NCBI GenBank assembly: GCA_903907985.1
Contig: CAIVQG010000072.1
Coordinates: forward strand, 1 to 64,000
Origin: an uncultured delta proteobacterium
GTDB lineage: Bacteria > Desulfobacterota > Syntrophia > Syntrophales > Smithellaceae
DNA: 64,000 bases
Reading direction: 5' to 3'
A program made the position numbers and the translations under genes. The notes under the pieces are model-generated. The model saw only the letters and a list, made by a program, of their open reading frames with translations, was not told where the DNA came from and did no database searches. This document shows positions 53,513 to 54,924 of this stretch, in pieces (within the stretch, counting starts at the first letter, position 1; each line of letters starts with the position of its first letter).

Positions 53513-54085
53513 ATGACTACAGTCAAAACAAAACGACCTACTCCTGCACCTACTTTCGCCGGATCCATAAGTATCGGCCAATTGGCAAAGCGCTTCGGCC
53601 TATCCCGTAGCACGCTCCTTTACTACGATTCCATTGGGCTATTGAAGCCATCCGCAAGAAGCCGGGCAAATTATCGGCGATATACACAGGAAGATGCCGG
53701 GCGTCTGGAGATGATCTGCATGTATCGCCAGATAGGTCTCTCGATGTTGGAGATCGGCGAGATCCTCAACTCCCCGAAGAACAGTGTGCATGACATCTTA
53801 GAAAAGCGTTTGCTTAGTCTAGCCAAGGAGATCGGCCGTTTGCGTGAACAGCAGCACCTGATTATCCGCATGCTCGGAGATCGTTCACTTCGTAAGCGTA
53901 TCCCTGTTTTAGATAAGGAAGGCTGGATTGCACTCCTGAGGGCTGTTGGCCTTAATGATGATGCAATGCATAAATGGCATCAAGAGTTTGAAAAGTTCTC
54001 TCCACTGTTGCATAAGGAGTTTCTGGAAGGGTTGGGCATATCCGCCGAAGAGCTTGACCTGATCCGTCAATGGGCGCAAACCTGA
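53513..54085 (+). CDS. MerR-family transcriptional regulator
   Basis: A 190-residue regulator with a typical MerR winged helix (ISIGQLAKRFGLSRSTLLYY, IGLLKPSARSRANYRRY, then GRLEMICMYRQIGLSMLEIG) and a C-terminal helical domain. The mercury-binding cysteines of classical MerR are absent; the only cysteine is in the DNA-binding half. The inducer is therefore not simply Hg2+ bound in the MerR way. It precedes the MerB-like selenoprotein gene by 80 bp on the same strand and probably controls it. Confidence 0.88.
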   Translation: MTTVKTKRPTPAPTFAGSISIGQLAKRFGLSRSTLLYYDSIGLLKPSARSRANYRRYTQEDAGRLEMICMYRQIGLSMLEIGEILNSPKNSVHDILEKRLLSLAKEIGRLREQQHLIIRMLGDRSLRKRIPVLDKEGWIALLRAVGLNDDAMHKWHQEFEKFSPLLHKEFLEGLGISAEELDLIRQWAQT

Positions 54086-54165
54086 TATTGTAATCAAGGA
54101 TACCCCTTATTCGGAATAATGTGGGTAGTTCTTATTATCAATCTAACAAGAAAGGAGTTATCAAT

Positions 54166-54924
54166 ATGAATAATAAACTTATGATGGGATTATGGAAGTA
54201 TATGATCAATGTGCCTCCATTCCTTTGGGAAAAGCAAATTGCCAAAGGGAAAAAGAAATATGCAGACCACCTTACCTTTATGTCCGAGGACCATCGGTTG
54301 GTGCACCATTTTGTAGTCCGGGAACTCCCGCTTGCCGGCAAGCCATTATCAAATGAATTCATCGCGAATGCCCTGAACATTCCCATCCAGAGAACGATTT
54401 CTATTCTGGATGATCTGGAATCGCATATGACATTCATCTTCAGAAATGCAGCTGGTTCAGTTATCTGGGCGTACCCTGTGACAGTGGAAAAAACACCGCA
54501 CCGGGTAACTTTTCAAACCGTTGAGCAGATATATGCGGCCTGAGCAGCCGATGCTTTTGCGACGCCCTTCGTGCAAGGGCAACTGAGAAAAGAATTACTG
54601 TCGGTTGTTGTCAGGACAGAATGCGCCCATTCCGGAAGGGCAATGGAAATCCAGATCGACAGCGACCTGAACTGCCGTGTGAATGAAGAAGGATGCAATC
54701 CTATTGTCTTCGTACCTGACATCGATCTTATTAGACTTGAAGATAAAAGCATTATCAACGCTTTTTGACGGGAAAGCGTTTTCTTCTGGTCAGAAGAACA
54801 TGCAAGAGATTATCGGCAGAAGGTTCACCGTTTGCGCGGTGCGTACATGACAGTGGATCAGATGAGCAAGGTCACGAAAATGATCCAGAGCGCTATTTTT
54901 GCCTTTGATAAGGAAGATTTATAA
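54166..54924 (+). CDS. MerB-like (organomercurial lyase family) selenoprotein with two selenocysteines
   Basis: One continuous frame of 252 codons that contains TGA at 54541 (codon 126) and 54766 (codon 201) and ends at TAA 54922. The N-terminal half has the MerB winged-helix layout (LPLAGKPLSNEFIANALNIP, then SILDDLESHMTFIFRNAAGS). After the first TGA the text is AADAFATPFVQG, so the codon plus AAD aligns with Cys96-Ala-x-Asp99 of MerB. Cys153 in TECAHSG matches Cys117. The second TGA in AF-U-RESVFFWSEEHA aligns with Cys159. A SECIS-like hairpin follows each TGA. AAGGAG lies 8 bases before the ATG. Conventional gene calling would stop at 54543. Function as an alkylmercury lyase is inferred; the regulator upstream is MerR-family. 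Confidence 0.85.
54564..54580 (+). promoter_or_regulatory. Putative bacterial SECIS for Sec126
   Basis: A perfect 6-bp stem GCCCTT/AAGGGC with loop CGTGC, which has G at the second position followed by U. The loop begins 26 bases after the TGA, inside the usual bacterial range of about 16-37. Confidence 0.7.
54781..54798 (+). promoter_or_regulatory. Putative bacterial SECIS for Sec201
   Basis: A perfect 7-bp stem TTCTTCT/AGAAGAA with loop GGTC, 19 bases after the TGA. The loop GGUC is the SelB-contact sequence of the E. coli fdhF SECIS. Confidence 0.8.

Follow-up and report, generated by a model that had tools for sequence, protein, structure and literature searches.

The organomercurial lyase MerB cleaves carbon-mercury bonds by means of two thiolates, which bind the organomercurial, and of Asp99, which helps to move a proton to the leaving carbon. 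SaoL (NF040728), an organometallic lyase that resembles MerB and belongs to the SAO system, was reportedly described by Haft and Gwadz in 2023. In Table 1 of PMC13188914, SaoL is given as a MerB-like selenoprotein with one selenocysteine (Sec) in a CU motif; a text search of the main text of that paper places MerB in the SaoL row only (the word occurs twice), and PMC9312934 has a row named "Alkylmercury lyase MerB-like protein". A MerB with both catalytic cysteines replaced by Sec was not found in the portions consulted of these two papers and of PMC11639659, nor by search terms in PMC12013277, PMC5029168, and PMC2398784; Haft and Gwadz (2023) and Haft and Tolstoy (2025) might mention one. Here we describe such a candidate, located at positions 54166 to 54924 of a 64,000-nucleotide stretch (hereafter the window) of contig CAIVQG010000072.1 from an uncultured delta proteobacterium of the Smithellaceae. 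We read it as a MerB-family gene in which both in-frame UGA codons are predicted to be translated as Sec and which likely encodes an enzyme that cleaves carbon-mercury bonds, and we give this sequence-based reading a probability of roughly 0.68. The novelty lies in the two-Sec form of MerB, since a one-Sec relative, SaoL, is already known.

A MerB-family gene with UGA codons at both catalytic cysteine columns

The gene comprises 252 codons and a terminal TAA, with in-frame TGA triplets only at codons 126 (54541) and 201 (54766). The single frame broken only at these two places, as seen in the preliminary description, was confirmed from the sequence. The gene and its close relatives are termed subfamily A below, and its features are the following.

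54153..54157, forward strand: Shine-Dalgarno-like AGGAG, recognized from the sequence, 8 bases 5' of the ATG at 54166
54166..54924, forward strand: predicted two-Sec MerB-family gene of subfamily A, based on the frame, the Pfam MerB score, and the predicted fold
54541..54543, forward strand: UGA codon 126, predicted Sec position 1, in the Cys96 column of MerB; TGA in 26 of 26 parsed loci, window included
54550..54552, forward strand: codon of Asp129, equivalent to the catalytic Asp99 of MerB; Asp in 26 of 26 loci
54622..54624, forward strand: codon of Cys153, equivalent to Cys117 of MerB; Cys at +27 in 25 of 26 loci, shifted by an insertion in the remaining copy (L080)
54766..54768, forward strand: UGA codon 201, predicted Sec position 2, in the Cys159 column of MerB; TGA in 26 of 26 parsed loci

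The protein scores 55.8 bits against the Pfam MerB profile (PF03243; gathering cut-off 27), which places it in the family, and its predicted model has the MerB fold. In the alignment with the MerB structure 1s6l (E 0.0014; residue numbers counted off the printed alignment), the first TGA falls on Cys96, Asp129 on Asp99, Cys153 on Cys117, and the second TGA on Cys159, which bears out the earlier placement of both TGA codons in cysteine columns with Asp99 and Cys117 kept. The MerB set Cys96/Asp99/Cys159 is thus not retained as Cys, Asp, Cys: the Asp is kept, and both Cys positions are UGA. The protein is therefore predicted to carry a Sec variant of the MerB catalytic set.

Under the standard bacterial code (table 11), the gene falls apart into two open reading frames (ORFs), 54121-54543 (140 aa from GTG, 125 aa from ATG) and 54571-54768. 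The two UGA codons cause standard gene calling to halve the gene, and these frames match the 125-residue fragment and orphan ORF that had been foreseen.

Conservation of the UGA codons in orthologs

A DNA scan of named genomes identified three loci that are 84, 76, and 76% identical to the gene over nearly its whole length, each with TGA at both positions. Among 197 genomes (the source genome included), 13 matches were obtained, every one of them with two internal TGAs; four of these match rows also show TAA or TAG, which lies at the end of the protein in the loci then parsed. The scan of the phylum (395 genomes) produced 24 matches, including 15 long ones (266-451 bits), all with two TGAs, and nine weak ones (53 bits or less) with none or one. 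Twelve of the 15 long matches come from genomes that were unmatched in the 197-genome scan. In total, long two-TGA matches are distributed over 13 family-level groups of one phylum (f1, f2, f4, f9, f10, f14, f22, f30, f34, f36, f52, f76, and f107).

A first set of 15 and a second set of 11 loci, 26 with the window, were parsed. The preliminary description had proposed a search for orthologs with TGA or TGC at the two sites, and TGA occupies both columns in all 26 loci, at a spacing of 74 or 75 codons (of 88 in L080) and with Asp at +3. Both TGAs are also present in a 27th locus (L074) beyond this set. The unusual spacing in L080, a subfamily A ortholog, results from residues inserted after the first UGA and before the Cys117 equivalent. 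One further copy (L032 and L033; G022:C7) is split over two frames, its sequence being otherwise conserved.

Searches of public protein sets matched 134 and 283 clusters, and the residues at the two sites were read in 172 listed clusters. The largest portion of these (121) stop at residue 125, directly before the first TGA, and 34 have Trp at both sites, which we take for TGA gene-called under another code. Another six clusters have Cys126 and end before residue 201, three have Trp126 without residue 201, and eight have other residues or frameshifted ends; no cluster with Cys at both sites was observed among the 172. Homologs lacking Cys or Sec in these columns had been named as evidence against the Sec assignment. 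This objection applies to the eight odd or frameshifted clusters, the rest ending at the site or having Cys or a Trp that fits TGA. Individual cases include P0065 (Ser126/Cys201), P0021 (Gly126/Leu201), and P0038 and P0047 (Trp126, the protein ending at residue 200).

Hairpins downstream of the UGA codons

Each UGA is followed by a hairpin resembling a selenocysteine insertion sequence (SECIS).

54564..54580, forward strand: SECIS-like hairpin 1, 6-bp stem GCCCTT(CGTGC)AAGGGC, loop 26 nt past the first UGA
54776..54803, forward strand: SECIS-like hairpin 2, 4-bp lower stem, 1x1 internal loop, and 7-bp upper stem

The upper stem of hairpin 2 (54781-54798) has the sequence TTCTTCT(GGTC)AGAAGAA, with the loop GGTC at 54788-54791, 19 nt past the second UGA; thus, the perfect hairpins noted earlier, with loops CGTGC at 26 and GGTC at 19 bases, are both present. 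As quoted in PMC13188914, the rules for a bacterial SECIS (bSECIS) are a loop of 3-9 nt, a stem of 4-16 bp, a G within the first two loop bases, and a distance of 16-37 nt from UGA to loop, and both hairpins have this geometry. With respect to the bSECIS threshold for minimum free energy (MFE; -7.5 kcal/mol or lower), the second stretch reaches -11.3, hairpin 2 included. The first stretch reaches -13.8 in a fold other than the 6-bp hairpin, and the 17-nt hairpin 1 alone -7.4. Across 15 loci, the MFE fold contains hairpin 1 in 12 and hairpin 2 in all 15.

The window has 2378 TGA triplets on its two strands, and 2.35% of them are followed by a hairpin as good as hairpin 1 when spacing and loop are held to the same rules; for hairpin 2 the proportion is again 2.35%. 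Stronger than any chance estimate is the recurrence of both TGAs, both hairpins, and the Asp99 and Cys117 equivalents in all 26 parsed loci (with the Cys past the insertion in L080). Synonymous-site codon identity over 14 loci is 0.96 in the 11 hairpin codons versus 0.48 in the 107 others, and the hairpin 1 codons CCC, TTC, GTG, and GGG do not vary across the 26 loci. Hairpin 2 is closed by U-A in 19 loci, U-G in 2, and C-G in 5, and no locus has this pair broken. All five loci in which Arg (CGG) stands in place of Trp (TGG) have TCG as the following codon (Fisher P 0.0003, kinship not corrected), a silent change that restores this pair. Elsewhere in the two stems, sequence variation is so scarce that covariation is slight. 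These sequence patterns indicate selection on the hairpins at the RNA level, as part of the case for Sec.

The same data bear on a decaying merB pseudogene with two stops, or an assembly error, as the origin of the interrupted frame. Two in-frame stops and the copy split over two frames would fit such an origin, which we nonetheless consider hardly credible: the same two TGAs, never TAA or TAG, stand at these places in 26 of 26 parsed loci of different genomes, identity extends over the whole length, and the hairpin codons are frozen. Pseudogene decay and sequencing or assembly error were ruled out by this conservation.

Selenocysteine decoding in the source genome

The preliminary description had made Sec decoding depend on selA, selB, selC, and selD in the same genome. 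All four are present, so missing machinery does not tell against it. In profile searches of the source genome, SelB scores 367.7 bits (cut-off 242), SelA 607 (cut-off 268), and SelD 370 (cut-off 125). The selD gene (L035, G000:C66:16328-17257) has one TGA inside, and SelD is thus probably itself a selenoprotein. Three places exceed the gathering score for tRNA-Sec (77.4, 51.8, and 47.4 bits), and for the best of them ARAGORN gives the anticodon TCA. The co-occurrence of SelB with the gene is uninformative, since 177 of the 197 relatives have SelB over the cut-off.

The machinery, the two-TGA orthologs, the hairpins under RNA-level selection, and the MerB fold together strongly support Sec decoding at both catalytic columns, in line with the original proposal. 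SelB with Sec-tRNA(UCA) would recognize the hairpin past each UGA and insert Sec twice, as suggested by the hairpins, the machinery, and their conservation.

Reading of UGA as Trp (table 4), which would make both sites Trp, could draw on the 34 of 172 clusters with Trp at both sites, most simply gene calls under such a code. We give it practically no weight, since TGA serves as an ordinary stop for 12 of the 45 window ORFs of at least 150 codons, the Sec machinery is present, some relatives have Cys at these sites, and we know of no precedent for Trp at metal-binding Cys columns. The UGA stops and the tRNA-Sec rule this recoding out.

Subfamily B and Cys-type relatives

The Pfam MerB search over the 197 relatives yielded 40 matches in 37 genomes, of which 31 have two TGAs, 3 have one, and 6 have none. 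Subfamily A contributes 6 of the 31 two-TGA matches, the search having missed 7 of the 13 known subfamily A carriers. Of the other 25, 22 loci were retrieved, all of which parse as subfamily B (among L041-L067, e.g., L041:1291-1995). In subfamily B, UGA is found at both columns, 65-66 codons apart, Glu replaces Asp at +3, and the core CTTCCGGTCGGAAG follows the second UGA in 22 of 22 loci. In a tree with long branches (C_L045 and C_L040) and 11 open forks, subfamily B groups in a single clade (99/99), with Cys-type sequences (100/96) as its sister clade; five Cys126 clusters divide into two among the subfamily A rows and three beside them without resolved placement.

Sister to subfamily B are MerB relatives of about 300 residues that have no UGA and carry a Cys at site 1 with a Glu after it (L039, L052, L053, and L056). 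The MerB relative at L040:1264-1947 (94 bits to the MerB model) is a one-Sec form, its UGA standing at site 2 and a Cys at site 1, and L045 is a Cys/Cys locus. A search with one subfamily B protein matched 194 public clusters; among the 120 listed, 42 have Cys at site 1 and end before site 2, 41 have Trp at both sites, and 37 are other or unread. The public matches also include two 155-residue proteins named "organomercurial lyase", one of them from a Dehalococcoidia bacterium.

Genomic context

The gene is preceded by one recurrent neighbor.

53513..54085, forward strand: MerR-type regulator directly upstream, adjoining the gene in 8 of 14 distinct loci scanned in relatives

The MerR-type gene lies upstream in L021 (same genome as L017), L022, L027, L018, L023, L025, L026, and L029 (42% identity), and was not found in L019, L024, L028, L030, L031, and the G022 locus. 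The window contains no Rfam match at gathering scores and no tRNA, and the search gave no PHROG match. The source genome encodes the mercury-methylation corrinoid protein HgcA (471 bits, cut-off 275; G000:C57:86908-87897). HgcA over the cut-off is present in 10 of the 13 carriers of the gene versus 76 of 184 non-carriers (P 0.018, uncorrected).

An alternative to a turnover enzyme is a stoichiometric metal trap or sensor partner, in which the diselenolate pocket would bind Hg(II) or an organometal without release and the MerR-type protein would act as regulator. Selenolates bind mercury very strongly, and the MerR-type gene is the only recurrent neighbor found. The invariant Asp99 equivalent (26 of 26 loci) would be unneeded by a mere trap, and we hold this interpretation to be improbable.

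Proposed function

Cleavage of a carbon-mercury bond, or of a similar carbon-metal bond, through selenium instead of sulfur is likely and our best guess, the substrate being the weakest link of the mechanism. The protein is predicted to fold as MerB; by analogy with that enzyme, Sec126 and Sec201 would form a diselenolate that holds the metal, and Asp129 would help to protonate the carbon, upon which the hydrocarbon would leave. According to the consulted portion of PMC11639659, small-molecule selones mimic MerB faster than their sulfur analogs do, so carbon-mercury cleavage should be sped up by selenium. Organomercurial lyase activity is predicted for the protein, for which the wording of the preliminary description, an organomercurial lyase or related enzyme, is suitably cautious. 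In the presumably anaerobic, hgcA-carrying host the likely role would be demethylation or detoxification of methylmercury or of another soft organometal.

Several observations weigh against this assignment. At the protein level, the NCBIfam MerB equivalog (NF009710) is matched at 54 bits versus a cut-off of 193, a further NCBIfam MerB model at 47 of 200 bits, and a diselenolate might hold Hg(II) too tightly for turnover. Hairpin 1 does not exceed shuffled sequences in stability (z -0.48), this hairpin is absent from the MFE fold of its own stretch in the window, and two of the 13 carriers (G058 and G146, 85 and 81% complete) have only weak matches to the SelB model. With respect to mercury, MerA is below the cut-off in the source genome (best 284.7 of 454 bits), a search of it for MerT gave no match (the controls equally without match), and 3 of the 13 carriers have no HgcA match. 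The window MerR-type protein, 190 residues long, contains a single Cys and reaches 43.9 bits with the Hg-responsive MerR model (cut-off 150.85), so mercury sensing is not indicated. A search for 11 window genes in the sequence flanking the relatives' loci (mostly 1.5 kb) showed the MerR-type gene alone to recur, apart from one weak match in L017 (40% identity); thus, there is no conserved operon past the MerR-type gene.

Some of these points would suit a SaoL-like function that is not directed at mercury, namely the single Cys of the MerR-type neighbor and MerA below its cut-off. The SaoL model is also weakly matched by 60 of the 73 rows of an alignment (A1) formed by the window, 3 loci, and 69 of the 120 listed clusters. 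Such a function is unlikely in our view, though a serious alternative: the window protein scores 36.8 bits against the SaoL cut-off of 140, no Sao family occurs among the matches listed for five neighboring proteins (for one protein, the best 25 of 33 families), the mercury-handling columns of MerB are retained as Sec, Asp, Cys, Sec, and carriers of the gene are enriched in hgcA. On L058, the 159-position SaoL profile extends as far as residue 163, the second UGA of that locus, and for this reason we suspect that the Sec of SaoL lies near the Cys159 column.

If the carbon-mercury lyase assignment is true, a natural enzyme splits carbon-mercury bonds by two selenols that share an active site, and its whole class has escaped notice because gene annotation ends at the first UGA, as in the 121 clusters above. 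The gene would be a concrete candidate for methylmercury breakdown in hgcA bacteria without MerA over the cut-off (as regards MerA, in this genome only). Sec and Cys could also be compared in natural proteins at the same two catalytic columns, between the two-TGA loci, L040 (Cys/TGA), and Cys/Cys loci (L045, for example). A broader proposal, to which we lend slightly less than even credence, is that widespread, unannotated selenium-dependent carbon-mercury lyases exist in anaerobes, many of them mercury methylators, with a diselenocysteine pocket replacing both MerB thiols, methylmercury demethylation independent of a mer operon, and two two-Sec clades in which the Cys-to-Sec swaps may have been independent.

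Comparison with known systems

Like SaoL, subfamily A belongs to the MerB superfamily and is a predicted selenoprotein, with 60 of the 73 A1 rows weakly matching the SaoL model. Unlike SaoL, which has one Sec in a CU motif according to Table 1 of PMC13188914, it has two predicted Sec residues at separate catalytic columns and stays below the SaoL cut-off. Compared with MerB (PF03243; PDB 1s6l, 3f0o, and 5c17), to whose structures it is 16-20% identical, the protein scores under the NCBIfam MerB cut-offs and comes from a genome without MerA over the cut-off; its predicted model has about 20 additional N-terminal residues, and UGA, predicted to encode Sec, stands in place of both catalytic cysteines. 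Subfamily B shares with subfamily A the UGA codons at both catalytic columns and the GGTC-loop hairpin past the second UGA, and differs from it by Glu at the Asp99 column, by a UGA spacing of 65-66 rather than mostly 74-75 codons, and by forming a clade of its own.
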